Shown one piece after another: positions 1,430-63,528 of a stretch of DNA of 64,000 bases (position 1 is its first letter; every line of letters begins with the position of its first letter). The notes under the pieces are model-generated. The model searched no databases, was not told the DNA's origin, and saw only the letters and a list, made by a program, of their open reading frames with translations. Position numbers and translations under genes: made by a program. The stretch lies in NCBI GenBank assembly GCA_028583605.1, contig CM053333.1, positions 27,755,302-27,819,301 of the forward strand. The letters run 5' to 3'. Origin of the DNA: Dastarcus helophoroides (taxonomy: Eukaryota; Arthropoda; Insecta; Coleoptera; Bothrideridae).

Positions 1430-1699
1430 TAATAATACAGTAACAACGGCAGATTAACGCTTCAGAAATTTTGGCACACGATAAGCCTTATCTGCTCGTT
1501 CCTTAAAGAACCCGAAACGGGAACTATATAAACGGGGTCGCCTTTCCCTCAGTTCAGTAAGTTAGTTTGTTAGTCAATAAATAAGTTAATTAATTAAACA
1601 GTATTAAGCGAATTGCAATTTTAGTGTTTCGAGTCCAGTTTGGAAATAAGGTGGTTACAATTCACGGCGTATTATTCTTCGAACCGATAACACGCAACA
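1430..1699 (+). repeat. 5' LTR of gypsy copy 1 (5'-truncated)
   Basis: It matches 6,490-6,745, from the CTTCAGAAATTTTGGC word through to the terminal CGCAACA. It holds its own promoter: TATATAA at 1,525-1,531 and a TCAGT initiator at 1,554-1,558, whose A is 31 bases after the first T of the TATA box. An AATAAA polyadenylation signal lies at about 1,576-1,582. This defines U3, R and U5. The U3 start is missing compared with the 3' LTR. Confidence 0.85.
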
Positions 1700-1718
1700 A
1701 CTAGTGTCAAAAGAGAGA
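1700..1718 (+). promoter_or_regulatory. Primer binding site of gypsy copy 1
   Basis: Directly after the LTR end comes a segment reading TAGTGTCAAAAGAGAG. The sister copy at 60,080-60,097 (minus strand) reads TGGTGTCAGAAGCGAG, the expected complement of a tRNA 3' end beginning with TGG. Copy 1 therefore carries a mutated primer site. Confidence 0.7.
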
Positions 1719-1835
1719 TTAGTTGTGCATTGTGCTTTATTTCTCGGCGGAATTCGTGCGCGGTTTCGCACTTAGACTTTATCACGGACGCTTTAAACTG
1801 TTAAGTAGTTTATACAAGGCGCGTAAAGAAAAATC

Positions 1836-3073
1836 TTGAACATTCGAGAACGCTTCCTGGAAGCGAGATTAAAATCGACCAAAGTGGAACAACAATTTCA
1901 AACGATATTACCAATGATGAAAGACAAAGAAGAACAGGATAAAGCACAAAAACAACAAGATGAAAAACAAAGACGACAAGACGAAGAACAAAGACGACAA
2001 GAAAAAGAACAGGAGGAAGAAGGTGGACGACAAGACGAAGAACGAAGACGACAAGAAAAAGAACAGGAAGAAGAATGAAGACGACAAGATGAAGAACGAA
2101 GACGACAAGATAAACAACAGGAAAAAGAACGAAGACGACAAACAAAACAGAAAGAAGAAGAACAGAGAAGGAATGCAGACAAACAAGTCTTGCATAGTCT
2201 ATTAGCCAATATAACAGAAAAAATGGGAGTAGACGTTGCAAAACTGAGAGAATGAATGAAAGAACAAATTACTGAATTGAAAGAAGAGATAAACGAATTC
2301 AAGGAAGAAATTGGAGAAGTAAAAGAAGAATTTACTACCAAGCTCCCTGATTTGGACAATGCAACACAGAAAAAGATCAACAGCATCGAAAATGTCATAA
2401 AGAAGTTGCTAAGTGGACCAGTTACACAACATGAATCCAAAAGTGCACCTACTATTTTTTATTAAGAAGTGAAACCTCCTACCTATGATGGAGAAGCATC
2501 CTTCCAGACCTACAAAAAACAGTTCAAGGCTACTGCTAAGACCAATCGGTGGACGGAGGAAGAAAAGGCGAACTCATTGGTGGTGTTCCTGTGCGAAAAT
2601 GCTCTGGAATTACTCCGAACTCTATCTGCTCATAAGCAAGCTAACCATGAGGATCTAGTTAATGCCTTAGAGCTGAGTTTTGGGGACCACCATTTGCAGC
2701 AAATTGTCCAGCCGCAGCTACTAGTGAGAGGGCAGAAAAGTGGTGAAACGCTGCAAGAATTCGAGGCCGACGTGAAAAGACTAGCGTATGTCGCCTACCG
2801 AACAACACCAACCAACTTTCTGGAACTTTACGCAGTTAAATCTTTATAGAAAAAATAAGAGACCCAGAAGTCCAGAGAGTAATGCGCTTGTCAAATTTCC
2901 GAACATCGAGGGAAGCATTAATTAAAGCTTTAGAGATTAAAGCTGCTTACAAGGTTTTAGAGGCAAAGGCGTCACGCAGAATAACATCAAAGGACACCCC
3001 AAAGGAGTTAGACTGTTTGCCTGCGAAACAGCTGTGGTGTAGGGAAGCAGAAAGAAGACGGTTATGGCTGTGA
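1836..3073 (+). pseudogene. gypsy gag, broken
   Basis: One reading frame runs from 1,836 to 2,849 but is cut by stops at about 2,076, 2,253, 2,463 and 2,847, then continues in another frame near 2,882. The first 110 residues are a highly charged Glu/Arg/Lys/Gln repeat region, predicted coiled coil. Next come a second helical Glu/Lys part and a retrotransposon gag core beginning KPPTYDGEASFQTYKKQF. The same order is seen in the minus-strand copy at 58.4-59.9 kb. I see no zinc knuckle in this copy, whereas the sister copy has one, so that part seems deleted. Product would be the capsid/nucleocapsid precursor. Confidence 0.82.
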
Positions 3074-3479
3074 TAAAAGGAGATTTGGGCTGCTGCGTTG
3101 GATTAGAAGAATTTACTAGTGGCGACATCCATAATTGGAACATCTCAGAAGGTACAAGTGAGAATTGCCAACATATTTGCAACAGCACGCCCAATCAAGA
3201 AGGGTACTACTTGGGCAATCTGTACTTCGGTAGCCTCAATAAGCTGCTTAGGCGGCAATCGTGCGCCCGTACAGGAAACGATAATTGGGCAAGTCTAGTT
3301 GAATGTGGACTTGAAACACCCGTCCAAGGAAAAAGCAATTCTGGCTAGACCATTTCTACAGAAAATCCACGGCGCTTTTACCGATGAAGACCAAAACCTA
3401 GGAAGGACGGACGTAATTCGACACTAAATCAACACCGGCAATGCCACACCTATTCGTCAACCCCCATGAAAATAACCTG
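3074..3479 (+). pseudogene. Degraded protease/linker region of gypsy copy 1
   Basis: This lies where the aspartic protease should be, between gag and reverse transcriptase. An open stretch exists at 3,064-3,348, but I cannot find a DTG/DSG active-site motif in it. I treat it as decayed pol sequence. Confidence 0.4.
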
Positions 3480-4985
3480 TAGCCAAGCAAGATGAAGTCA
3501 CAGGACTGGTTAAGAAGATGATGAAGGATGGAGTCATCAAGGAGTCCAATAGTCCATGGTCTTTCTCTGTAGTCTTGATTACAAAGAAAGACGGGTCAAC
3601 AAGATTTTGTTTCGACTGCCGAAAATTAAACGACGTGACTAAGAAGGACAGCTATCCCTTGCCAAGAATTCATGACACCTCAACAACCTTGTCTGGGTCC
3701 ACTTGGTTTTTAACTCTGGACTTGATACTGGATATTAGCAAGTGAGCATATTCCCCGATGACAAAGGGAAGACAGCATTTTCATCTGAGACTAGATTATA
3801 TCAGTTCACGGTTATGCCTTTTGGACTATGCAACGCACCGACTACTTTCGAACGTCTAATGAAACTGGTACTTCGAGGACCCATTTGGAAAACCTGCTTG
3901 GTTTACTTAGATGACGTCAAGGTGATGGGCAAGAGCTTTAAAGAACATTAAAAAAATCTTTAAGAAGTCTTCGACAGGTTAAAACAAGCCAACTTAAAGC
4001 TAAATTCAAAGAACTGGTCTTTGTTTTAAAGGCAGGTAGAATACTTGGGCCACATTGTATCAGCCGCAGAAGTGGAAACAAATATCAGCAAGACTCGAGC
4101 GACGTCAAGCGATGGTGTCAAAAACTTAAAGTTGAATCCAAAGAAGTACTCTTTGGTTCAATTGAAAGTGTAATTATTGGGCCACACTGTATTAGCCGCA
4201 GGAGTAGAAACAAATATCAGCAAGACTTAAGCAATCCGTGACTGGCCAAGACCCAAAAATAAACATAAACTAAGAAGTTTTCTAAGGTTATGATGCACCT
4301 ATTACAGAAGATTTGTGAAAGGTTTCGCCAACATCTCTGCACCACTACACCGACTAACGAAAGGAAGAACGCCATATGTCTGGACTCCAGATTGTGATAC
4401 CGCTTTCCCAAAACTGAAGTTTGCCTTGGTCACAAGCCATATCTTGGCTTATCCTCAGCAGAATGAAAGGTTCGTGTTAGACACTGATGCCAGCAAAGTT
4501 GGTATTGGGGCTGTGCTATTTCAAGTTCAAGGTGATGAGGAAAGGGTCATCAAATATTACAGCAAGATCCTGACGAAGCCGGAGAGGAACTATTGCACCA
4601 CCAGGAAGGAACTTCCTGCGATAGTGAAGGCCGTGGAATACTTCCACAAGTATTTGTATGGGCAAGAATTCCTCATCAGAACAGATCATTTGGCGCTTTG
4701 CTGGTTACTCCGAATGAAGAACGCAGAGGGGCAGAGAGCTAGATGGTTAGAGAGGCTCCAACAGTATCACTTTAAGGGGCTGATGAAGCCGGAGAAAAAC
4801 TACTGCACTACTGAACTTCTTGTGATAGTAAAAGCCGTGGAACACTTCCACAAGTATTTGTATGGACAAAAATTCTTTATCAGATCATAAGGCGCTTTCT
4901 TGCTTACTCCGAATGAAAAGCGCAGAAGGGCAGACGGCTAGATGGTTAAAAAGGTTTCAACAATATCACTTTAAGGTGCTTCATT
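3480..4985 (+). pseudogene. gypsy pol: reverse transcriptase and RNase H, broken
   Basis: The fingers/palm of a Ty3/gypsy reverse transcriptase are clear: MKDGVIKESNSPWSF, then VLITKKDGSTRFCFDCRKLN, YPLPRI, FTVMPFGLCNAPTTFERLM, and the catalytic motif VYLDDV near 3,903-3,920, still intact. RNase H follows from about 4,320 (YVWTPDCDTAFPKLK, then FVLDTDASKVGIGAVL with the first catalytic Asp). The frame is split by stops near 3,744 and 3,949 and by frameshifts. Two tandem duplications lie inside: 132 bp at 3,991-4,229 and 210 bp at 4,571-4,980, the latter doubling the RNase H tail. Enzymatically dead. Confidence 0.88.
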
Positions 4986-5012
4986 GACCGGATCGAAATT
5001 ATAACAGCGCTG

Positions 5013-6399
5013 ATGCTTTGTCCAGAAAACCTTGTGGGGATTTCAAACGCTGCAGACGAGTTGAGGACCATGAGATCATGGTATATATATATAAGAGTCA
5101 CGTATATCCAGCCAGAAGATGGATGGACTGTTGAAGGTCTTCGGGAGCTACAGAAGAACGACGCTAGTATCAAACCCATATTGGAATGGAAAGAAGCTGG
5201 AGATAGACCCGAATGGCAAAAAGTATCCGACAGAAGTCCAGCTTTTAAGAATTTGTGGGCCCAATTGAAATTCCTTTAGGTAGAGGACGGGGTGCTGAAG
5301 AGAGCATGGAAAAGGGCGGATCGAAAACGTATCAACTTGCAGTTGGTAGTGCCTCAGGAGAAGATTTTACAGGTTTTGTGGCAGGTGCACATTAAGACGT
5401 CTGGTGGACATTCAGGGATGAACAAGACACTGGAGAAGATTCGAAAACGGTTCTATTGTGTTAACTGCAGGGAGGACGTCGAGCGTTGGTGTCGGAAATG
5501 AATCACCTGCGCTGCATCAAAGGGTCCTCGTACAAAAACCACAGGGGCCCTACAGCAGTATAATGTGGGAGTTCCATTTGAAAAAATTGCAATCAATGTG
5601 GCGGGACCATTTTTAGCATCAGACGATGGAAATAAGTGCACCTGGTGGCCATTGATTATTTCAGCAAATGGCCTGACACTTACGCCATCCCGAACGAGAA
5701 AGCTATTACAGTTGCAAAGGTTTTTGTGGACAACTTCATCTGTCGATTTGGTGTTCCCTTGAAACTATAGTCGGACCAAGAAAGGAACTACAAATCGGGA
5801 GTTTTCCAAGAGTTGTGCCGTCTTCTTGGAATAAAGTAAACTCGAAAGACATTCCTTCATCGACAGTCTGATGGAATGGTGGAAAGATTTGATAGGACCT
5901 TGAAGGAACATCTTTCAAAGGTTGTTTTCAAGCATCAGACAGATTGGGACCAATAACTACCACTGTTTCTAATGGTCCACCGTGCGGCAACACACAAAAC
6001 GACTGGTCAGACTCTTTGAGAAGGAACTGCGGCTTCCGTGTGACTTATCGCCAAGGAAGACCCCCAGGGAGACGATGGGTTTCGTAGATGACTTAAAAAA
6101 AGCAATATTGGAGACGGCAGACGAAGAGCAACTTAACGACGGACCGGATGAAGACAAGATATGACGTCAACGCCAACCATAGTGGTTTCAGTGAGGGCAA
6201 ATTTGTATGGCTATACAACCCTCAGCGGAAGAAAGGAATTTCGCCCAAGTTTACGCCATCTTGGGAACGGCCGTGCAAAGAACTAAAGAGGATCAACGAC
6301 TTGGTATACAGGATCCAGCGTAGCCTCAGAGCCAAGATGAAAGTGATGCACCTTAATAGATTGTGCAAATATAGTGTCGAGGTGACTAATTGGAACTGA
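5013..6399 (+). pseudogene. gypsy pol: integrase, broken
   Basis: The amino-terminal HHCC zinc finger is visible between about 5,380 and 5,510 (HIKTSGGHSGMN, then CREDVERWC and, after a stop, TCAASKGP). The catalytic core begins VPFEKIAINVAGPF near 5,570. Here the first catalytic Asp expected after the Ile is Asn, a loss-of-function change. The rest of the core is spread over frames, with the SDQ and SDGMVERF words near 5,770 and 5,870. The carboxy-terminal part (FVWLYNPQRKKGISPKF, then WERPCKELKRINDLVYRIQR) lies at 6,200-6,390 and matches the usual gypsy tail. No chromodomain is seen. Confidence 0.85.
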
Positions 6400-6415
6400 T
6401 CGGGACGATCAGTCT

Positions 6416-6429
6416 TGAGAGAAAGGCAG
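6416..6429 (+). promoter_or_regulatory. Polypurine tract of gypsy copy 1
   Basis: A purine-rich run GAGAGAAAGGCAG lies immediately before the TGTAAC that opens the 3' LTR, where plus-strand priming would start. Confidence 0.6.
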
Positions 6430-6745
6430 TGTAACAAAGTGTAATTATAAAATTTAATTAGAAGATTTCTAGAAAAATTTGATAGGGGAAAGCAGCCGCA
6501 ATAGTGAATCAAACGCCAGATAAGCACTTCAGAAATTTTGGCAAACGGTAAACCTTATCTGCTCGTTCCTTCTAGAACCCAAAACGGGAACTATATAAAC
6601 GCGGTCGCCTTTTCACCAGTTCAGGAAGTTAGTTAGTCAATAAATAAGTTGGTTAATTAAACAGTCCTAAGTAAATTACAATTATAGTGTTCCGAGTTTA
6701 GTTTGGAAATAAAGTGATTCTCCTTCGAACCAATAACACGCAACA
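6430..6745 (+). repeat. 3' LTR of gypsy copy 1
   Basis: The LTR starts TGTAAC and ends GCAACA. It contains TATATAA at 6,592-6,598 and an AATAAA near 6,640. It aligns with the 5' LTR, the solo LTR at 25.8 kb and the minus-strand LTR at 60,098-60,439. Many differences from the 5' LTR indicate an old insertion. Confidence 0.87.
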
Positions 6746-9302: not shown

Positions 9303-9377
9303 TCAAGACATCTGAAAAGTATTACCCGTGACCGGCAATTGGTCATGGATATACCAAGTATGAGGTAAGTCACCTAC

Positions 9378-9716
9378 CTGATTCATATATGATCTGACAA
9401 ATTCCATGGACTGCTCAAGTGCATACGTATCACTGCTGCATGAGTCTATAATAAGAGCGCCTAAAGTGATATTTGGGAGAATATCTGGACTGTTGTTAAT
9501 TTCGTCTATCGCGTAAAGCATGGCCTCCAGCCTCTGGACCCCTTTTTCTTCCTTGACTGCACCACATGGTTGTTCTGAGCGTCCGCTTACTTGCTCATGC
9601 ATCGGAAAGATACCCCCAAGGATAACATCTCCATTGAATCTGATAATTTTTCCATCTGAATCTCCATCACCATAACAAGTTGAAATAATCAATATGAGAA
9701 TATAATATCTGTTCAT
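9378..9716 (-). CDS. Metabotropic glutamate receptor-like, first coding exon
   Basis: The frame starts at 9,716 with a hydrophobic signal peptide (MNRYYILILIISTCYG). It continues with GDVILGGIFPMHEQ, then PCGAVKEEKGVQRLEAMLYA and LGALIIDSCSSDTYALEQS. These are hallmark segments of the venus-flytrap ligand domain of class C G-protein-coupled receptors of the mGluR family. Such receptors are synaptic membrane proteins that bind glutamate or related ligands and couple to G proteins. The frame stays open past 9,378, but a good splice donor CAG|GTAGGT lies at 9,380-9,374 (minus strand), so I end the exon there at VRSYMNQ. The other exons are not recognisable in the window. I cannot tell the mGluRA type from the mXR/mangetout type. 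The exon has no stops or frameshifts, unlike its transposon neighbours. Confidence 0.85.
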
Positions 9717-10109
9717 TTTGATTTTAGATAATTAAGCACCTAACGAATAATAAAATTGTAGCCTACATATTATTTTTAAAAAGTCACAAATGTTTAGTCT
9801 GCAACTCACAAACTTATTAGAGTTTTTTCGCTATCAATCTGAGCCATTTTTGTGCTTATTCAGTGCACATTTCGAACTAATTATTTAAATGATCAAATTT
9901 AATTTTATAGAAATGAACATTTTACCGACAATGTTTTTAAATTAATTTTGGTCGTAACTTTATTTAGAAGTATTACTGTTTCGATTACTTGTGAAACTGG
10001 TTGAAGTGTAACGGTCATCTTGTATCGCAAACTTTCGAAAACTTCGTATGTTGCGGAAGTAGGTAGGAAATGTTGGAATCGCGCTTTTGCAAGATGTTCG
10101 GTACAGCGC

Positions 10110-41807: not shown

Positions 41808-42808
41808 CTAGGTCTTTTTATTTTCTCTATTAACGTTTATAATGCAAGTTGCAAAATCTTCTGAATTTTGCGTTAATGGAAGGTTGTTAAATGTATTAAA
41901 CACCGCGGATCTTTTCGTCCAACTCGCTGTATTTTTTATTAAGTCTATATTGAGTAGACTTGCGTGTCTCACACTATGACTCTTAAAGATCTCAGTGTCG
42001 ATCCTACTTTCTTCTAAAACTTCTTTAATCCATCTGCTTTTAGATTGTGTAGAAGCCGTATAGTAAGGTTTCTTGTGGGTTAAAATTAAATTATCATTAT
42101 TTGAGCGGAAAGTCCGTGTTTTATTTAAGTAATATTGTAGCGTCGAAGCGATATAAAGTTCTGGTCTTTCTCTAAGGAAAGGGAATACTAAGTAGGACTG
42201 TTTTTTGCCAGTACCTGAGGTTTTTATTCTGTCGGGGATTCGAATCCCAATCTTTTCCTTAGTCTGATGGATGTTATTTATGGATATTTTCGATATTGTC
42301 TGAACTCTCTGTCCCGAGGTAAGTAGCAATATAATAACCAGTTTTAACGCTAATCTCTCAAGTGTTAGGGATTCTAACGGAAAAAGTGTGGCTAAGAAAT
42401 CAAGAACTGGGTTTGGATCCCAGGTTGCTAAATATTTTGGTGTTGTAGGCTTATTATTGTATATGCCTCTCAAATATCTTTTAAAAGTTTTTTCCTTCTT
42501 TAAAGTTAGTGTGAAAATTAGTGATAAGGCCGATCGGTAACAATTAAGACATGAGTACGATAACGGCATTTCTGCATTTTCCGTAAGAAATAATAAGACT
42601 GAATTAAAATCTTTGGTTTTTTTTAACATATGCTGTATTGTTTTAATGTTTTGTCGGTAATTGAAGCTGACATGATTGGAATGGTTGATTCAGGTATCCC
42701 TTTGTCCTTAAGAAAGTTCCTGATAACTTCCCTGTCACCAGGGAAAGTGAGTTGTAAAACTTTTGGAATCAGAATGAATGATGGAAAGGCTAAAAAAATG
42801 TGTTCCAT
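41808..42808 (-). pseudogene. DIRS tyrosine recombinase
   Basis: The first 60 residues (42,808-42,623, including GDREVIRNFLKDKGIPEST) join by a frameshift near 42,625 to a 273-codon open frame ending at 41,808. Catalytic features: Arg I in TSGQRVQTISK; the HSVRHAS box with the second Arg; then SWTKRSAVFNTFNNLPLT. In DIRS recombinases that last segment usually ends with a nucleophile Tyr before Asn/Asp-Arg-Pro; here the position is Asn. The enzyme would have cut DNA by a 3'-phosphotyrosine link during integration of the circular DNA copy; this copy lacks the nucleophile. The domain is otherwise well preserved. Confidence 0.88.
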
Positions 42809-42832
42809 GTAATTGTAAAGGCAGAGGCGAAA

Positions 42833-42941
<109 letters not shown>

Positions 42942-42959
42942 CCCTTTTTTCTTCGTTGT

Positions 42960-44190
42960 TACCCTGGCAGGCGCCCCAACAAGTAAGAGAAGCGTCCGAA
43001 AACAAATTTCAAAACAAAAGGGTTTTTGTTCTATGGATTTTTTAGCTTTATTAAGATTATTTAATCACCAAGAAAACTCTTGACTCAATGTTTTTGGAAT
43101 GATCATGTTTCTGTTGAAGTTATACGTATGTTTCTTAAGGGCCTGTTGTTTAGCAATTTAATGTGGGCGAAACCGATACTAGTTTCCCTACCAGGGGAGC
43201 GAATTTTCTTATTTTACAGATCTGCTTTTTTAAGATCGCGTGTAGTCTTCGTTATGAAATTGACCTTTTTAAGTGGTAAACCAAAAGTCAATTGTCGAGA
43301 GTTGAAAATAAATCCTAAAAATTTAATATTATGAGTTGGAGTTAATATGTTTTTTTTCCTTATTAATAGTAAAACCGAGGTTTAATAAGGTTTTTAATAT
43401 AAATTTAATATAGTTGGAGCATGTATTAAAATCCTTTCCAAGAACCAGTATATCATATAAATATATTACTACTACTAGCCCTGCTGTCGTAAAAACTTTG
43501 TAATTGGTTTAAATAATTTTGTGAATATTTGGGGAGCAATATTCAAACCAAATGGTAGACAATTAAATTGTATTATTCATTTTGAAATTGAAAGCGCAGA
43601 CATTTCCTATATTTCTTGTTAATAGGCAAAAGGTAGTAGGCATTTTTTAGGTCTATTTTAGCCATGTAGCAATCACGTGAGATTAATTTCAAAACATTAC
43701 GGTAATCTTCTATCTTAAAGTGTTTAGTTAGAATTAAGGAATTCAGCTTTTTTAGGTTAAGGATAAATCAAAGTTTTCCACCTGGCTTTGTAATTAAAAA
43801 GTAAGATCACAAAATTTGCCCTTTTTTGTATTGACATTTTGATATAGCCCCTTTTTTGAGTAAAGTGTTAATTTCCCTAATTTTTGTTTGGTATGCATCA
43901 AGAAAATAATTTGCGGTAAGCTACGTTGCTTAGGCCTTCCTGAAAAGGGAATTTTAGTACCCTGTATTTGCTTATTATGTGTTATATTTTCCGATTGATC
44001 CTTGAAATATTTTACTCTGCCTGCAAGTTTGGGGTAATTATTTACCTCTAAACATTGTAGGATTTCCTGCTCTGGTACTCGCGTATCTTGTCGTGTTGTA
44101 AATATCTCTTCCTCTGTCGTCCTGTCCTTATTTGTCGTTTCTTTTCTTTGTATTCCCTCCTTCTTCCTTTAATTTTTTTGGTTTAAGGTG
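42960..44190 (-). pseudogene. DIRS reverse transcriptase/RNase H, broken
   Basis: On the minus strand: KKGAISKCQYKKGQ near 43,850, FILNLKKLNSLIL, CYMAKIDLKNAYYLLPINKK near 43,650 (first catalytic Asp), NCLPFGLNIAPQIFTKLFKP near 43,540, and IYLYDILVLGKDF near 43,455. The last is the catalytic box, normally YLDD, with Tyr replacing the first Asp. Downstream parts up to 42,960 ([18 protein letters not shown]) belong to the RNase H end. Several stops and shifts. The family gives DIRS-type RT, distinct from the LTR-element RT at 3.5 kb. Confidence 0.83.
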
Positions 44191-46230: not shown

Positions 46231-46884
46231 TTTATTTCTAATGCTTCAGATGCAGAACTCCCGTAATCCTTATTTTTTTTTAATATGACACCTACATATT
46301 GTGTCTAAATACTATAACGTATTGAACTCATAATTTGATATAATCTGCATCTAAAATCAAATTCATTTAAAAACCAAGATGAAGTAAATTTCGCTATTCC
46401 CAGAAATCTCTCCTACATTGAAGGTGTAGGGGTATTTCATGAACTAATAAAATGAAGGAGTGCTAAGTAAATCATGTAACTAAATTCTTAATCAATGTTG
46501 TCCTAAATGCATGAGTTTACAAAGTTATAATCTTCTCTAGCACAAAATTCACACTGCAAGGTCAATACCGTATGACTGACTGCATCCAAATGAAGACTAT
46601 TGGTTAATCCTATTAGAAACTATTATTAATTTGTTAAATCAACAAGAGCAGTTTAAAATGAGGATACAGCCTTCTACCCTCCACATGCTGTTTAGGGATT
46701 TAGTTTTTCATTATTTAATATCGCTAGATTTTTCATCATAGTGTTAGAAGTAAATCCTTTGTAAATATTTAAAAGCTGGATCTACATCAATACAAAAGCT
46801 CGTTGAATGTCGGATTCAAAAATATATATATATATATATATATATATTTACACCTTAAAATAATTAACATTGCTTGAGAAATAT

Positions 46885-47050
46885 GTTTCGCAAATTTCAA
46901 AATATAATGCACAACACGAATTTTTATTTATGTGGATCCAGCTTAAGCTTATGCCTTAACATTTCGTGTTTCGCAAATTTCAAAATATAATGCACAACAC
47001 GAATTTTTATTTATGTGGATCCAGCTTAAGCTTATGCCTTAACATTTCGT
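46885..47050 (+). repeat. Perfect tandem duplication, 2 x 83 bp
   Basis: Bases 46,885-46,967 are repeated exactly at 46,968-47,050, starting GTTTCGCAAATTTCAAAATA. Perfect identity implies a very recent duplication. Non-coding. Confidence 0.97.
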
Positions 47051-47187
47051 GCATACAGTAGATCAGAGGGATAACTTAGAATTCATATCAGGCTGTTTTT
47101 TCATCTTTGTCTACTACAAATAAAACGCAACATAGTTAACCTTGTCTGACACAAGGTAATGTCTTTACAGACGGTACTGTATGTACG

Positions 47188-47327
47188 TGTAACAACAACA
47201 ATGAAGAGATAATTTGCAATTTCATATTCTTTATTCTCGAGCGTCTACAAGAATACGTGCGCCTGTCTTAATTGACAAATATGACTGGTGACGCACAGTA
47301 GTGCCAACTGGATCGCGTACTGTGACA
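47188..47327 (-). repeat. 3' LTR of the mini element
   Basis: It starts TGTCACAGTACGCGATCCAG and ends TTGTTACA. It is about 26 bases longer than the 5' LTR because of extra sequence before the terminal GTTGTT run. Contains AATAAA. Confidence 0.85.
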
Positions 47328-47410
47328 TTCCCATATTTGGTTTTTTAAACATGAATATTAAGTGTTTGAATATACAATTGAAAATATATCAAACACATTT
47401 TCAAAACAAA

Positions 47411-48130
47411 TTATAAATTTAGTCTTTGAACATGTTTTACCATGCGACCGGATCTGGTAACTGTTGGTATTAATCGTGACTGTGTCAAAGAAGTCGGAGC
47501 TGGAGAGTTGTTTCCCATAGAATTGGAAGGCAAGTTCTCGGCTGGATCGATGGCAGGAATCTGGAGCGGTTCGTTGTTGGTTGTGAACGGATTGACCACT
47601 GATTCAAATGGCTCATTAATCTTGGCTTCAGATTTCTGCACTTGGCTCGAGTTTTTTCTAATGTTCTTTCCAGTTTGAGTTTCAATGGATACCGATCTAG
47701 GATTCTCATGACCTATAATTCTTCCCGTTTTCCAATGACGAGGAGCAACTTGATATCGTACTTGGTCGTTGACATTGAAGTTAATGGCTGGTTTAGCGCT
47801 TCTGTTTGCATAATGTTGTTGTTTATATCGTAATCGTTGTAGTTCTAGATTGACTAGTTCTTTCACTTTGGGTGTAAGATTTTCAATTGTAGCAGGGAGT
47901 TTAGATCTGGTCAGCCTTGACATCAGGCTTTCATTGGGTGATCCAAGGACGTCATTTTGTGGTATGTTGCGGAAATTCAGAAGAGCAAGCTGAACGTCGG
48001 AATCATCTATAGCACATTTTTTGAGAATGTTTTGAGCAGTTTGCACTCTAACAACTTTGGAAAAAGCCAATTTTAATGCGGTGCTGAAGCACACCCTGGA
48101 AATTTTCAAGTTGAGGTTCGTCAAAAACAT
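47411..48130 (-). CDS. Chimeric frame: antisense TOP3B leader fused to integrase C-terminus
   Basis: A 239-codon uninterrupted frame. The first 27 or so codons read through the antisense of the TOP3B fragment. From about residue 29 (VQTAQNILKKCAIDDSDVQL, ALLNFRNIPQNDVLGSPNES) it is the end of a Ty3/gypsy integrase. It continues through KELVNLELQRLRYKQQHYAN, then FNVNDQVRYQVAPRHWKTGR and ENPRSVSIETQTGKNIRKNS, the usual C-terminal beta-barrel region of this lineage, and a Pro/Ser/Asn-rich tail ending KHVQRLNL. The catalytic core is absent, so no integration activity is expected. It is the longest element frame here without a stop apart from the DIRS recombinase and the Penelope copy at 54.7 kb. 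Whether it is translated is unknown. Confidence 0.75.
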   Translation of the reverse strand: MFLTNLNLKISRVCFSTALKLAFSKVVRVQTAQNILKKCAIDDSDVQLALLNFRNIPQNDVLGSPNESLMSRLTRSKLPATIENLTPKVKELVNLELQRLRYKQQHYANRSAKPAINFNVNDQVRYQVAPRHWKTGRIIGHENPRSVSIETQTGKNIRKNSSQVQKSEAKINEPFESVVNPFTTNNEPLQIPAIDPAENLPSNSMGNNSPAPTSLTQSRLIPTVTRSGRMVKHVQRLNL

Positions 48131-48297
48131 CGACGGGACGGATCAGCTTTTTGAAGTTTCCTTCTCGCCTTTGAGCGCCTCCGGTGAAGCGCATTACAGG
48201 TGTGGTAAATGCAGAAGATATATGAAATACATACGGGCGAAGCCCCAAAGGTTGCATTGCCCCCAATGCTATGAAACTTACAGTGTTCCCCACACCT
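48063..48297 (+). pseudogene. TOP3B: Captured fragment of DNA topoisomerase 3-beta
   Basis: The plus strand reads NFNAVLKHTLEIFKLRFVKN, then QLFEVSFSPLSASGEAHYRC, GKCRRYMKYIRAKPQRLHCP and QCYETYSVP. This corresponds to the end of the toprim/cleavage domain and the first C-terminal zinc finger of TOP3B, with the four Cys (CGKC and CPQC) present. TOP3B is a type IA topoisomerase acting on DNA and RNA. Only about 78 codons are present, without stops, ending exactly at the element's primer site. It lies between the LTRs and in antisense to the element. It is therefore most simply a fragment of host transcript or gene taken up by the retroelement, not a local gene. Confidence 0.8.
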
Positions 48298-48304
48298 GAC
48301 ACCA

Positions 48305-48418
48305 TGTAACAAAAACATTCTTTATTCTCGAGCGTCTACAAGAACACGTGCGTCTGTCTTAATTGACACATATGACTGGTGACGCACGGTAGTGCCAACT
48401 GGATCACGTACTGTGACA
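48305..48418 (-). repeat. 5' LTR of the mini element
   Basis: The 114-bp LTR starts TGTCACAGTACGTGATCCAG and ends TTTGTTACA. It matches 47,188-47,327 with about ten substitutions plus the length difference. The divergence means that the insertion is not brand new even though its frame is open. Confidence 0.85.
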
Positions 48419-48419
48419 G

Positions 48420-49700
48420 CACGTATCATAGAAACTATTTTGAAACTTATCATACTCTATAACTGGGCCTAGAGCTAGACAATATAATCGGTAAGGGGCC
48501 GATAAACTTTTCGTGTCATGACGTGGACCAGAAGTGATTAAAAATTGTTGCTAAAATCAAAAGTGCGCCATCAATGTTTGGTTGATCGCTTACACTTGAA
48601 TTTGGTTTCGATGGAGATTTTTTAAATATTTTAGCCAAATTTTACCTTCAACTAGGTACTAGAAAATGGGCTAAGCATGGAATAGAAACTAGTTATTTTT
48701 CTCTTAAAATTATAAATTTTTAGATACAACTTTAAATTCGATTTGGAAATTTATCAAATATCCAGAAATGTTCACTAACATTTTGAAATCTCAAATTCTT
48801 ACTTGAAATTTTGGATAAAAATATTGGAAAAAGTTGATTTTTTGAGAAACTCGTGAAATCTTTAGGGAAGTTAAGTTTTTACTCGAACTTTCGATTAACG
48901 ATGTGACATTTTGATGTTAATCTTAAATTTTGAAGAGGACAAATCAAAAAAAAAATATTGCCAAAATTTTGAAATTAACGTCAGATTATTTGAGAAAAAG
49001 TCACAATTCGCGAATTGTGGAAATGTCTTGTTAAATGAAATTTTGAGAAAATCTTTAAAATTTTTTTGAAAATTATGACAATTTAAAAGTTTGTGCTTAA
49101 AATCAAAATATTTGGATAATTGCAATAATTGACATACTTAAGTTTTGAGGGAAGTTAAAATTTCGAAAAAATATCTAATGACGTAACATACTTAATCACA
49201 TTTTTTGTAATAAATAATTTTATTGCAACTTCTATTATTTATGGCAACTAACAGCTAAGTGAATAATAAACTTGTAAGCTTAAATCAAATAAACGGGCCT
49301 ATGCTGCTCAGTGAGGAGAAATTTTCTGCGAACCTCAATCATTAGGTTTAGGGTAGCTTCAACATTAAAATCAATTACACTATCTTTTTGAAAATTCTAT
49401 GCATTAACTGCCCTTTGTTTATGTTTGCCATTCTTCATCATATAATTTGCAAAATAAGAGTGCCCAAAAATCGCGAATTTGATGCACTTGATGCAAATAG
49501 GGAGATTATAATTTTGCAGAAGAAGAGATGAGCAAAGGGGGAAACAGTAAGGGTTATATTAAAAACTGATTGAAATCTGCTTTCTTACAGGATCATCACG
49601 TTGGAGACGAATGAGTCGTTGTAATGTTTTGGGCTTCTTGGAATCAAGTTATTTATTACAGAAGAATATCGTTAAATATTTTGAGTCAAAAATTTTGAAA
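48420..49700. other. Non-coding stretch
   Basis: The part 48,600-49,200 is a degenerate AT tract with TTTGAGAAAAAGTCACAATT-like words. The remainder has no recognisable gene. Confidence 0.45.
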
Positions 49701-54246: not shown

Positions 54247-54745
54247 ACATCAAGTGTAGCCAGATTGAAAATGTTATCTTCATAAATAAAGTCCAAGAAG
54301 GTTTCACCCCTTTACCACATCGGCAATTAGATAAATAATTACGCGATACGTATTTCGCCAGCAGAACTGGCATTTTCAAGCGTACTAATCTAAAAAGATT
54401 AGCAAAAGATGCATCGACGTCAACTACATTGAGATTCAAATCGATACTGGCGGTCTTTTGCTTTCTTTCCTATTTCTAATTGTTTAACACATCTGGTGCA
54501 TGCAATTTTGACCTACCACAAATAGCCTTCAATAAACTGGATGCCGCCAATGGTCCTTTATCTCCGTCAAGAGTAACTGGCCTCTGATTGATATAAATTG
54601 TTTCGTATGCATCAAGTTCTCTGCTATTTGTGACCGATCTTAACAATTTTAAATTTTCAATGTTAATTTTGTGTCCTGTACTTATCATATGTAGGGCGAC
54701 ACTTGATTTTTCTTCTCTATTGTATCTAAAATTATTAAGAAGAAC
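54247..54745 (-). mobile_element. Inverted copy of the Penelope-like 3' part (GIY-YIG end and 3' UTR)
   Basis: On the minus strand, 54,745-54,476 encodes NREEKSSVALHMISTGHKIN, IENLKLLRSVTNSRELDAYE, TIYINQRP, the C-terminal part of the GIY-YIG nuclease with the conserved Glu in LDAYE. The 3' UTR follows, mirrored at 55,790-56,012. It lies head-to-head with the plus-strand copy starting at about 54,745. The inverted copy keeps roughly 115 bases that the plus-strand copy has lost. Confidence 0.88.
54345..54384 (-). repeat. Stem-loop in the inverted Penelope 3' UTR
   Basis: On the minus strand, CTTGAAAATGCCAGTTCTGC followed by TGGCGAAATACG forms a GCCAG/CTGGC stem with GAAA after it. The same motif is at 55,917-55,957 on the plus strand. 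Confidence 0.6.
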
Positions 54746-55690
54746 TATTGACATTCAATCAAATAGACAAAGAAGTAATTTCAGAATATTTAACTCTAAC
54801 TTCATTATGTATGAAACAGAACGTCTTCCAGTTTGATAATAACTTTTATAGACAAACAAATGGTACCACCATGGGAAATCCATTAAGCCCATTTCTAGCA
54901 AATCTTTTCATGGACAATTTTGAACAAGAAATTAAAAATAAATTAATAAACTTTCCTCGAATTTGGATACAATACGTATACGACATTTTTGCAGTTTTTG
55001 ACACCAGTAAATATGAAGTTCAAGATTTCGTTGATAAGTTAAACTCAAAATACAATTCAATTAACTTTACATTTGAAAAAAAAATCAATGGACTGCTCCC
55101 GTTTTTAGATATCTTTGTTATTGGAAATAAAAATACTTTAGAGTTCGATATATACAGAAAAGAAACCAATACAAATCGCTTTATCACAGCTGATTCTAAT
55201 CATTGTCCACAACAGAAATTAACAAGTATACGTTTTTTAATCAACAGGCTTTTAAATGTTTCTCTAACTAAATCCAGATATACAAAAGAATTAGCTTACA
55301 TTAAAGATGTTGCGATTTTTAATGGTTTCCCTATAGAAACAGTAAACAGCATGTTAAGAAAATGTAGATTTAAGAAAATAATTCAGGATTGCTCTAAGCT
55401 TCACCAATCTAAAGATAACACTCCTACAACCGTTGTGAAATTACCATTTTACCCGAATATCACCAATCAAATTAATAAAGTTCTAAAAAAAAACAACGTA
55501 AAAGTAGTGTACACAGCCAATAACAGTCTCCGCAATAATTTGGGTAATGCTAAAGATAAATTGAACAAGCTTGAGAATTCCGGAATTTACGAAATAAGCT
55601 GTAACAATTGTAATTTATCATATGTTGGACAGACCAAGAGATCCAATAAAACCAGATTTAAAGAACATATCGCTCATTTTAGATAAAATA
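54745..55690 (+). pseudogene. Penelope-like element RT and start of GIY-YIG, copy 2
   Basis: A 312-codon open frame. RT palm: NGTTMGNPLSPFLANLFM, then WIQYVYDIFAVFDT, where the YVDD box has become YVYD (first Asp lost); LLPFLDIFVIGNKNTLEFD follows, then the thumb region (RFLINRLLNVSLTKSRYTKE). The frame ends in SGIYEISCNNCNLSYVGQTK and FKEHIAHF, the GIY and YVG motifs of the nuclease, with a stop where the inverted copy reads on. The N-terminal RT is missing because the copy begins at the head-to-head junction. Confidence 0.9.
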
Positions 55691-56012
55691 GAGAAGAAAA
55701 ATCAAGTGTCGTCCTACATATGATAAGTACAGGACACAAAATTAACATTTTATTATTAACAGTTTATTGAAGGCTATTTGTGGCAGGTCAAAATTACATG
55801 CACCAGATGTGTTAAACAATTAGAAATAGGAAAGAAAGCAAAAGACCGCCAGTATCGATTTGAATCTCAATGTAGATGACGTCGATGCATCTTTTGCTAA
55901 TCTTTTAAGATTAGTGCGCTTGAAAATGCCAGTTCTGCTGGCGAAATACGTATCGCGTAATTATTTGTTTAATTGCCGATGTGGTAAAGGGGTGAAACCT
56001 TCTTGGACTTAA
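55691..56012 (+). mobile_element. Penelope-like 3' part, direct copy
   Basis: It continues copy 2: remnants of the nuclease end (AATCAAGTGTCGTCCTACAT), then a deletion of about 115 bases relative to the inverted copy, then the 3' UTR to GGTGAAACCTTCTTGGACTT. Contains the stem-loop at 55,917-55,957. Confidence 0.85.
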
Positions 56013-57950
56013 TCACAAACCACAGTGTTTAGTTCAATGCTTTAGTTCATAAATAAAGAAAAAATAGGGGGTGTACCAAGATCCTCTTACACATGACATA
56101 TATTACGGGTGTTTTTCGAGAGATTAGTTTCATTTTTTGATGTTTAAATTTTGATAAACTATTATTGAAGGAAATATGATTTAATGTACGTTTTTTCGTA
56201 AATCGCGTTGTTCTGCATTACTGGTGGCAGGCACAAAGACGATAAAATTTAAATAAATTGTTTTGTTCCCAGATATTAGAAGACGTAAATCAGAATGTAG
56301 ATTATCACTAAAGAATACGTATTTCTTGTCACGGTTTCATCATCCTATCGACGAAACGCAAATTTCTCTTGTCATCGGGGACCAGGCAATGTTAACTGAA
56401 AACAAACAACAAACGGTTTTATACCATACTCACCAACCCTAAAACTGTATCCTTCTTATTCCTTGCCAAAGTGTCTGTGCCTATGAAATGCGGTTCAAAA
56501 TGTGATTCTTATTAGAATGTTAATTTCCAACTTTTTACTTCTTAATATGTAGTAGTATCTTTATAAACACTTATGAAATAAAAATAATTTGTTCAATTAT
56601 TGTTTTAGTTTCAATTTTTATTTTTGTTTTTATTTTAAATTTGCCACCGCTATCCCATATAACTACACTACTCAAGTGCCATCTACAAACGCTCTACCTT
56701 TGCTGTTATAGTTCGGAAATTATTTAACTTTCTCCTCTGATCTACTTTGTGACTGCGTGAAACGTTTCCCACGCTTTGTTATTATTGACCGTTATAGATC
56801 TTAAAGTTTTTCAATCGCCAATTATAGCACACCAAAGGTCATTCCAACGCATTTGAATAATCTGAAAATAACCCAATATGAGTTTTTAATAGGCTTTATT
56901 TCATGAAATATTACAGAACGGTATTTTTATGACAAAGCTTTGTTTAACTTTAGTCTCATTAATCCGGTGTAAAGCTATTTAAAAGTTTGGGGAATTTATG
57001 ATTTTCATCAAAATAAAACGCATTATGTTAAGTGACTAATGCAAAATGCAGTGTGCATTTTGAAGTTTGAGCAATTTAGCCTTTTCCACAGATAGATTTG
57101 GCACTTACGGTGTGGTTGAACGTAATTACTAAAGCTATATAAGGGAGACAGTAGGAGAGGAGTTGTCGAGTGTCATCAACCTGCCGGTCTCGATTTATTA
57201 CCCAATGATTGCTAATCGTTCAGTATTCCCTTTGAAAACACTTCGTATTTCATCCATAACTAAATCTATTTCATGCGGTTCCTATTAAGATCAATTTCAA
57301 AGCAATTATTCAAGCAATTTGGGTTAAAATGTGTGCTCACTCGCCACTCATATCTTGAAATACTGCAATTAGGACCCCTATTTGGTAAAGCTATTAAAAT
57401 CTAGTGGAATGTTTATTGGGAAAAAAGATTACTAAATTGAAAGGTTAATTTAAAGGTGCCTTTAAAGGTGACAACGAAGGGTTGTATTATTTTTGCATAG
57501 TATATTTCAATTCTTTTGTGTTAGGATTTTTCACTACTGTGTCCGAAATGAATTGAGATGGTCACAATTATTATTAATGTTTCACGAGTTTCTTCTTCTT
57601 GCTGTAAGAACAAATCAAGACACAAAGTTCTTTTAACAAGAGCAAGATTTGTTGTCAAAAAACTAGCAGGAAGCAAGATTTTTTACTTTTTCCCATTTTT
57701 ATTTACAGTAGGCGATGCCTAAGAAAATGATCTCTCTGATGAGACTGTCTCTTGTCGTTAAACTGAGTATGTAAGAATCTTTAACATTTGTAATTAATAT
57801 TAAATGCGAATTTTAGATTTTACACCATCAGTTAAGAATATTAGCAGTATTTTCCACTCGGGTGTATTAAAATAGCTATCAACTTCCTCTCTAGTTAGAT
57901 GTTGAATCCGTGTGGTGTGAGGACTCATCAGACGCGTCCCAGGTGGCGGA
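56013..57950. other. Non-coding stretch
   Basis: No gene recognised. A TATATAAG near 57,137 could be a promoter element, but no initiator or reading frame follows it at the expected distance. Confidence 0.4.
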
Positions 57951-58364: not shown

Positions 58365-59990
58365 GATCAAAAGAGTTTTGGGCTCTGGTTGCTCGACACC
58401 AGCCAGTAAGTGTCTCTTCTCACTGGCTGATAATAGTGTTTCTCCTGTGGGGCTAGTTGACTTCTTGGGGCTGCCCTGCAGTCCTTCTTGAAGTGTCTCG
58501 ATTTACCACAGTTGTGACATATTGTGCTTCTGTTGGATCTGCTTTTAAAAGCTCCCACCACTTCTTTGATGCTCGCATTTATTTCCTTCGTGTTAGCACT
58601 TATGTTCGCGTTCATTTCTTTCATGTTGGCACTTATGTTCGCGTTCACTTCCTTTATGTTAGCTCTTATGTTCGCGTTCATTTCCTTCATGTTAGCGCTT
58701 GTGTTCGCCAGATCAGGGTCATTCGCAGCCTTTTCGATGTCAGCCTCCCTTACTCTCAGTGCTTCCCTCGATGTTCGGAAGTTTGTCAAGCGTATCACTC
58801 TCTGGACTTCTAAATCTCTTATTCCTCCTTTGTAGATTTTAACTGCGTGAAGTTCCAGAAATTCGGTTGGTGCTGTTGGGTAGCCGACATACGCCAGAGC
58901 ATTTTCACGTCAACCTCGAACTCTTGCAGCGTTTCACCACTTTTCTGCCTTCCTACTAGCAATTGCCACTGGAGGACTTGCTGCAAATGGTGGTCTCCAA
59001 ATCTCAGCTCTAAATCAGATCTTCATAGCTAACTTGTTCATGATGAGATAGATTTCGGAGTAGTTCCAGAGCTTTTCCACGCAGGAATACCACCAATGAG
59101 GTTGCCTTTTTTTCCTCTGTCCGCCAATTGGCCTTAGCAGTAGCTTTGAGCTGTTTTCTGTAGGTCTGGAAGGATGTTTTTCCATCATAGGTTGGAGGTT
59201 TCACCTTTTGAGAAGAAATAGCGGGTACCTTTTTGGATTTATGTTGTGTAAATTGTCAACTAAACAACTTCTTCACGGCATTTTCGATGTTGCTGATCTT
59301 CTTTTGTGTTGCATTGTCCCAATCAAGAAGTTTGTTGTTGAATTTTTCTTTCACTTCCCCCATCTCTCCTTTCATTCCTGCAATTTCTACTTTTACTTCT
59401 CCCATCTCATCTTTCATTGCTGTTATTTGTGCTTTCACTTTTCTGTTATATTTGCTAATAGACCATGCAATTCTTGTTTGTCTGCAATCCTTCTCTGTTT
59501 TTCTTCTTCTTTTTCTTGTCGTCTTCGTTCTTCATCTTGTCGTCTTCGTTCTTCCTCATGTTCTTTCTCTTGTAGTATTCGTTCTTTATCTTGTTGTCTT
59601 TGTTTTTTCTCCTGTTCTTTTCCTTGTCATCTTTGTTCTTCATCTTGTAGTCTTCGTTCTTTCTCCTGTTCTTTTTTCTTGTCGTCTTAGTTCTTCATCG
59701 TCTTGCCTTTGATCTTTCTCCTGTTCTTTTTCTTGTCGTCTTCTTTCTTCATCTTGTCGTTTTTGTTCTTCATCTTGCCATCTTCTTTCTTCCTACTGTT
59801 CTTTTCTTGTCGTCTTCGTTCTTTATATTGTTCTTTTTCTTGTCGTCTTCGTTCTTCCTTCTTTTCCTCTTTGTCTTTTATCATTGCTTATATGGCTTGC
59901 AATTGTTTTTCCATTTTGGGCGATTTTGATCTCGTTTCCATAAAGCGATCTAGAATGTTTAAGATTTTTTTGACGAGCCTCGTATAAACT
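58365..59990 (-). pseudogene. gypsy gag, broken
   Basis: In order on the minus strand: the Glu/Arg/Lys-rich coiled-coil region (about 59,890-59,455, shifting frames); a second helical part (MKDEMGEVKVEIAGMKGEMG); the gag core (KPPTYDGKTSFQTYRKQLKA, about 59,204); and RLTNFRTSREALRV. Then about four tandem copies of an 11-residue unit, SANMKEMNANI, near 58,735-58,610, and a CCHC zinc knuckle CHNCGKSRHFKKDC near 58,525. The knuckle is nucleocapsid-type and would bind RNA. Confidence 0.85.
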
Positions 59991-60079
59991 ATTTTTCAGT
60001 TTAAAACGTCCGTAATAATGTCTAATTGCGGAACCTTGCACGAATTCCTCCGAGAAATAAAGCACAATCCACAACCAAT

Positions 60080-60097
60080 CTCGCTTCTGACACCAGT
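60080..60097 (-). promoter_or_regulatory. Primer binding site of gypsy copy 2
   Basis: On the minus strand, directly after the LTR: ACTGGTGTCAGAAGCGAG. It is better preserved than in copy 1. Confidence 0.75.
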
Positions 60098-60439
60098 TTT
60101 TGCTTCTTATCGGTTCGAAGATTAATACTCCGTGAATTGTAACCGCTTTATTTTTAAACTAGTTATGAAACACTACGATTATAATTCACCTAACCAACTG
60201 ACTAATTAAGTTACTAACACTGTTTAATTAACTGACTAACTCATACTTACTGAGGGAAAGCCGACCGCGTATTTATAGATTCCGTTCCGGTTTCTAGAAG
60301 GAAAGTATAGATAAGACTTATCGTTTGCGGAAATTTTTGGAGCGCTTACCTGCCGTTTGTTGCATTATCGCGGCCCTTCCCCTTTACAAATTTTTCTAGA
60401 AAACTTCGTTACTAAATTCTATAACTATATTTTGTTACA
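60098..60439 (-). repeat. 5' LTR of gypsy copy 2
   Basis: The 342-base LTR starts TGTAACAAAATATAG on the minus strand, with CTATAAATACGCGG (TATA) followed by CTCAGTAAG (initiator), then AATTAAACAGTG, and ends GCAAAAA. It confirms the complete LTR length of the lineage. Confidence 0.88.
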
Positions 60440-62348: not shown

Positions 62349-63528
62349 CAAGGTGATTCTAAAAGTAGTACCATAAATTTGGGATCGTATTTTAGAGCCC
62401 AAAATAAAACTAAAAGCCTATTGTCGTAAAATGCTTTGTTTCCGAATTACAGGGTGTGAAAGGTTATTTCCTGATTATAGTTTTTTATTGATAGTTGCAT
62501 AACGTGTACAGATTATTGAATGAAATTTGGCACAACTTTATACTTTTTGGTACCCTTTCCAAAATCAAAGAAATATTTAACATAACTGAACCAGTGGCGG
62601 GTATATCCAGAGGAGTGGTGCGTAAAACGTGCCTTATTTATTTTGTGTTCACTTTTATTGCCGTTCAGTAACAAAAATATAAACTACAAACATTTTAACA
62701 TAAAAAAGGTACTGTTACTGAAATTTGATATTTTCAGCGGTTTTCGAGTAAAGTGCATTTTTATATCTGGATGCATTAAAAACGTTCGCCCAAAAATATC
62801 GAATGTGACACAGAATTGGCATTGAAATGAAATAAAATAAATAGCATTGACATTTTCATGTTTTTTGTCACCGGTGGCCACCTTGAACAATTTCTGTAAA
62901 TAAAAGCTAATATTTTTAAATAAGGTTATTTGCTAAATATTTACGAAACATTTTTTTAAATGTTAATTCAAATTGATTCAATATTAGTTTAAAAAAAATT
63001 ATTGCGAGAGTACATTTTAACTAATTTTATTTTCTCTCATTTCAAAGCCAACTATGTGTCAGATCCGGGATTTTTGTGCAAGCTTTTTTAATGCATCGAG
63101 ATATAAAAATACATTTTACTCGAAAACCGTTGATAATATCAAATTTCAGTAAAAGTTTCTTTTTTATGTAAAAACGTTTCTAGTTTATATTTTTGTTACT
63201 CAACTGCGGTAAAAAAGCGCACAAAATAAATAAGGCACGTTTTAAGCACCACCTCTCTGGATATACTCGCCACTGATTAAGTTCTGTTAATTAATTCTTA
63301 GATTTTTGAAGTTGGCACAAAAAGTTATGAAATTGTGCCAAATTTCATTCAATTATCTGTACACGTTTCGCAACTATTAATAAAAAACTATAATCAGGAA
63401 GTAATCTTCCACACCCTGTAACTCGGAAACGAATCGATTTACGACATATGTTTGTAAAATCTTTTAGTCTTATTTAAGGCTCAAAAATACGATCCTGCAT
63501 TTACGGCACTACTTTTAGAATCACCTTA
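62349..63528. mobile_element. Long-TIR fold-back element (about 1.2 kb)
   Basis: The element starts AAGGTGATTCTAAAAGTAGT and ends with its complement at 63,510-63,528. Arms are about 480 bases with high similarity: TTACAGGGTGTG, TTTTTTATTGATAGTTGC, GTGCCTTATTTATTTTGTG and ACATAAAAAAGGTACT recur inverted. The interior of about 230 bases is empty of coding sequence. Apparent frames of 60-68 codons at 62,643-62,890 are chance. Confidence 0.9.

Follow-up and report, generated by a model that had tools for sequence, protein, structure and literature searches.

A stretch of 64,000 nt on contig CM053333.1 of the beetle Dastarcus helophoroides (hereafter the window, at its full length) contains a defective long terminal repeat (LTR) element of the Ty3/gypsy type, within which a fragment of the host gene for DNA topoisomerase 3-beta (TOP3B) lies antisense to the element and is joined to the end of an integrase gene. 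The LTRs thus enclose captured sequence of a host gene, which is fused to element sequence. Read along the minus strand, the element consists of the 5' LTR, the primer-binding site, about 245 nt of antisense TOP3B, the end of pol, 83 nt, and the 3' LTR; its features and those of its borders are the following:

48418-47188, minus strand: defective element, Ty3/gypsy-type remnant, length 1.23 kb
48419..48423, no strand: possible target-site duplication, right, GCACG, partner of 47183-47187
48305..48418, minus strand: 5' LTR, 114 nt; starts TGTCACAG, ends GTTACA; AATAAA at LTR position 93
48287..48304, minus strand: primer-binding site candidate, TGGTGTCAGGTGTGGGG, adjoining the 5' LTR; TOP3B homology extends into its inner half
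48045..48293, plus strand: TOP3B coding fragment, corresponding to Zophobas TOP3B residues 568-653; antisense to the element
47411..48142, minus strand: open frame crossing the seam, 243 codons stop to stop; Met at codon 5, 239 codons from Met
47411..48046, minus strand: Ty3/gypsy-type integrase, C-terminal part, 211 codons and stop; ends where the Pol proteins of its relatives end
47328..47410, minus strand: spacer from the pol stop to the 3' LTR, 83 nt; weak purine run GGGAA at the polypurine-tract position
47188..47327, minus strand: 3' LTR, 140 nt; starts TGTCACAG, ends GTTACA; AATAAA at LTR position 93
47183..47187, no strand: possible target-site duplication, left, GTACG, 4/5 match to GCACG

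The LTRs contain direct repeats (47226-47327 and 48317-48418) with 95% identity over 102 nt, and both have TG...CA termini; the LTR pair flanking a tiny element, as proposed when this DNA was originally described without database searches (the sequence-only reading), is thereby borne out. Compared over their full length, the LTRs show 6 substitutions in 114 aligned positions and a single gap of 26 nt, the 5' LTR being the shorter copy. Immediately inside the 5' LTR, at the position of a primer-binding site, sits the sequence TGGTGTCAGG; apart from a mismatch, we take the candidate site to be similar to the complement of the 3' end of a tRNA-Leu. Neither a tRNA gene nor an Rfam match at gathering score was found in the window. 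Between the LTRs there is nothing besides the TOP3B piece, the integrase tail and the 83-nt spacer; gag, protease, reverse transcriptase (RT) and RNase H were not found there, and since the element lacks these genes of its own, it is classed as non-autonomous. For the possible target-site duplication GTACG/GCACG, at most one mismatch in 5 nt is expected by chance in 1.6% of cases, calculated for one fixed length. Beside the element, an exact tandem duplication of 83 nt occupies 46884-47049; a part of the duplicated unit (46912-46944) recurs in inverted form at 46773-46805 (33 nt, 79% complementary).

The plus frame 48036-48296 identifies the host-derived segment. It matched human TOP3B (9cah_A, residues 573-655; E 4.8e-25), the sole PDB sequence under 0.001, and the Pfam domain Zn_ribbon_TOP3B (E 3.8e-19), in agreement with the stop-free zinc-finger piece of TOP3B that the sequence-only reading had placed on the strand opposite to the integrase. 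The frame runs for 87 codons without a stop and retains the CxxC pairs of the zinc ribbon. Significant similarity to TOP3B, which that reading had set as a test of its proposal, was found at E <= 1e-3 for 103 of the 111 candidate proteins from the protein database, and the TOP3B zinc-ribbon domain was present in 103 of these 103. The top match was to Zophobas morio (80% identity over 98% of the query, E 5.2e-35), and identity to the 18 named beetle TOP3B proteins listed was 71-81%; judging by genus names, we assume that 15 of the 19 best matches are beetles and that the 20th is a leafhopper. The homology to beetle TOP3B extends from 48045 or 48048 to 48293-48296, with an in-frame loss of three codons (QYF), and stops inside the primer-binding site, where the piece had been predicted to end; the codons at 48291-48296 may be derived from the primer-binding site. 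As a second test, the sequence-only reading had pointed to neighboring TOP3B exons outside the LTRs; a tblastn search of the whole window with 8 insect TOP3B proteins drawn from the 103 recovered no further exon, all other matches having E > 4. Because the window contains no other TOP3B exon, there is no real gene flanked by the LTRs, and a genuine TOP3B gene between LTRs was rejected as a candidate.

On the opposite strand, minus 48046-47414 aligned with two gypsy-type Pol proteins at 38% identity (E 2.0e-31 and 3.9e-27); these alignments cover the C-terminal 217 and 210 residues of the two proteins, from VQTA(K/Q)N to the last residue. A third Pol match, from Ostrinia, had 53% identity over 119 residues, and the integrase tail that had been read on this strand is thus substantiated by 38-53% identity to three Pol proteins. 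Searched by itself, the tail gave no significant Pfam domain (best E 0.021, unrelated); its relatives carry RT, RNase H and rve domains (P0104 and P0105) or rve and H2C2 domains (P0106), and we regard the order RT, RNase H, rve as that of the gypsy type. The 239-codon frame that had been described as running from antisense TOP3B into the integrase exists, yet just about 32 of its codons cover TOP3B.

Both seams of the captured segment are sharp. All three Pol relatives begin to align at one codon, 48046; upstream of it only 3, 1 and 1 of 32 residues of the element are identical to them, whereas the relatives continue to resemble one another there. From the other side, the alignments with the beetle TOP3B proteins compared begin at 48045-48048, and the plus-frame residues before 48045 are unlike TOP3B. 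Since the Pol alignments and the TOP3B homology abut without resemblance beyond, the integrase/TOP3B seam is located to within approximately 3 nt near 48046, with a possible short match of 0-3 nt between the joined sequences. At the primer-binding-site seam, the element reads CCCCAC where beetle TOP3B has Pro-Gln, leaving room for a match of about 4-5 nt.

The TOP3B fragment was compared with a conservation set of 22 close TOP3B relatives (best matches only), 18 of which are beetles as far as we judge from their names, the others being P0005, P0009, P0016 and P0017. Of 84 alignment columns, 48 are invariant across the 22 relatives, and the fragment differs at 8 of these 48; one of the eight altered residues (codon 83) falls in the stretch that is possibly derived from the primer-binding site. 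Such changes are not expected in a gene under selection; with 8 of 48 invariant residues altered and three codons missing, the fragment looks like decaying sequence. When random changes were simulated, the plus frame stayed open in 58% (14 changes) to 66% (10 changes) of cases. With this degree of openness, and with about 32 antisense codons in a frame of 239, we rejected function as read from open frames.

The anatomy of the element, the opposite orientations of its two coding remnants, its two sharp seams, and the loss of gag and most of pol are directly evident at this locus. Its likely origin is a non-autonomous Ty3/gypsy-type insertion produced by aberrant reverse transcription, in which the TOP3B piece was caught by accident; no regulatory role is needed to explain the element. 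During the replication of LTR elements, minus-strand DNA copies the element RNA, and plus-strand DNA crosses the LTR and the primer-binding site first. A review (PMC5408686) outlines how, during reverse transcription, template switching between cellular mRNA and the RNA of LTR elements is made possible by short matches. In the proposed sequence of events, a few bases at the 3' end of plus-strand DNA, at the primer-binding site, would have annealed to TOP3B mRNA. Reverse transcriptase would then have copied about 245 nt of this mRNA, leaving TOP3B antisense in the coding strand of the element, before a second switch, at the VQTA codons of the integrase gene, returned the enzyme to minus-strand DNA of the element. 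Enzymes of an intact relative would have integrated the product, which may have been decaying since. We infer the order of these switches from the replication cycle of LTR elements and from orientation: a jump of the minus strand to the mRNA would give TOP3B in the sense of pol, and the antisense orientation found here implies that the plus strand copied the mRNA, if mRNA was the template.

Several observations weigh against this reconstruction. Why the 5' LTR is 26 nt short is without explanation, the run at the polypurine-tract position is a weak one, and the two copies of the possible target-site duplication do not match fully. The short match that would have primed the switch at the primer-binding site is deduced from beetle TOP3B proteins. 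The order of the switches is deduced from orientation, and copying of TOP3B DNA, or of antisense TOP3B RNA during minus-strand synthesis, would leave an identical product. The mRNA origin, too, is presumed. Finally, 9 residues over about 185 sites (an estimate, three quarters of 246 nt) occur in the fragment but in none of the 22 relatives, compared to an LTR divergence of 6 over 228 site-branches; since the fragment has more residues of its own than LTR divergence predicts, the TOP3B capture may predate this insertion, an excess that was not significant (p 0.18).

An alternative places the capture at the DNA level: break repair or gene conversion would have inserted a piece of a TOP3B exon into an element already present, accompanied by an internal deletion of gag-pol. 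The fragment is entirely coding and thus offers no proof of derivation from mRNA, and patching from DNA would be compatible with either orientation; yet one of the two seams falls within the primer-binding site, where reverse transcription starts and pauses, and the other joins cleanly to pol. The fragment also contains no TOP3B intron or non-coding sequence, and we consider DNA-level capture unlikely, if still worth weighing. That the plus frame is coding, as a TOP3B retrogene or an exonised zinc ribbon, might be suggested by its 87 stop-free codons and retained CxxC pairs; the frame ends, however, in the primer-binding site, carries the 8 alterations at invariant residues, has neither the catalytic core nor adjacent exons, and would stay open anyway in most of the simulations with 10 or 14 random changes. 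A coding role is the least credible of the explanations considered, and a coding TOP3B retrogene was rejected on account of the altered invariant residues and the missing core and exons. An assembly chimera is scarcely more credible: LTR, primer-binding site, insert, pol end and second LTR follow each other in order, and the LTRs differ from each other at 6 of 114 positions.

The orientation of the TOP3B piece invites a functional interpretation, in which a transcript from the LTR, complementary to TOP3B mRNA, feeds small interfering RNAs (siRNAs) or PIWI-interacting RNAs (piRNAs) that lower TOP3B. The orientation fits, and AATAAA occurs in both LTRs. A motive could be seen in the role of TOP3B in transposon silencing in flies (PMC12070812; PMC6251927), where Drosophila Top3b is described as promoting piRNA biogenesis and transposon silencing (PMC12070812). 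A precedent is provided by AT-chX repeats with vasa-like sequence, which lower vasa alleles; according to the same report, AT-chX piRNAs act on the vasa alleles of related species that are more than 90% identical, and not on the less similar melanogaster allele (PMC11172174). Against these points, the TOP3B sequence is without sign of constraint, and the element is present as a single copy in the window; a working antisense unit is, in our estimate, very improbable. Its more elaborate form, in which antisense TOP3B serves as an anti-silencing device (siRNA or piRNA against TOP3B) to the benefit of the element, and the chimera has spread as a family, is more improbable still. The window contains no second copy of the element; in viral_contigs, which is not a collection of insect genomes and possibly excludes the window's own genome, the LTR pattern had 0 matches, and a scan with P0106 matched 21 stretches, none of which was confirmed.

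Other repeats and remnants lie elsewhere in the window. A larger, second gypsy-like element at 1445-6719 is bounded by repeats (1445-1656 and 6512-6719) of 85% identity and contains RNase H domains at 4294-4887; its RNase H stretch is partly tandem-repeated at 4682-4980 (100 nt, 84%, spacing 199), and an inverted copy related to it occurs at approximately 58760-60193. In the region 41808-43896, a tyrosine-recombinase-like frame, which reaches Phage_integrase exactly at the Pfam cut-off, lies near weak RT-like matches (43353-43896); we presume that this may be a DIRS-type element. The region 54286-56013, which we take to be Penelope-like, includes an RT frame (54739-55686) and a GIY-YIG-like end below the Pfam cut-off; the RT frame lies between 254-nt inverted repeats that are 97% complementary. 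An exon-like minus frame at 9303-9731 (ANF_receptor, E 1.4e-11) resembles, by eye, the start of a metabotropic glutamate receptor. A long inverted repeat at 62422-63446 has 300-nt arms that are 84% complementary and 184 nt apart, and outer 143-nt arms that are 85% complementary.

Gene capture by LTR elements is a known phenomenon; the antisense orientation and the TOP3B target are the unusual parts of the present case. LTR-mediated retroposition and gene capture in animals have been described by Tan et al. (2016; as cited in PMC5408686 and PMC8232201). From these accounts, the Dastarcus element shares with the animal cases the placement of host coding sequence inside LTRs and its junction with element sequence, which there is attributed to template switching; it differs in that the piece is just about 245 nt long, comes from one gene, is antisense, and starts in the primer-binding site. 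The antisense frames of the plant elements Grande, RIRE2 and Retand are likewise antisense to pol inside an LTR element; as reported, all or most copies possess them, their place is between pol and the 3' LTR, and no host source has been recognised for them, whereas the piece described here is at the 5' end and derives from a recognisable host gene (PMC7264820). The AT-chX/vasa system, in which repeats containing part of a germline gene feed small RNAs, is the model for the antisense interpretation; it is described as a multicopy piRNA cluster with measured piRNAs, in contrast to the element discussed here, of which one copy is known, from its sequence alone (PMC11172174). Our literature search, in which the broader capture literature was judged by titles, found no published capture of TOP3B by an LTR element.

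As a case of host-gene capture in an insect LTR element, this one is clean: both seams can be located to within a few nucleotides, and the orientation is the less usual, antisense one. A counter-silencing role is unlikely, yet it is directly testable, as the captured gene, TOP3B, is reported to act in transposon silencing in flies. The antisense orientation and the seam in the primer-binding site, taken together, lead to a specific prediction, that switching to mRNA would occur during plus-strand synthesis, which can be checked in other insertions.
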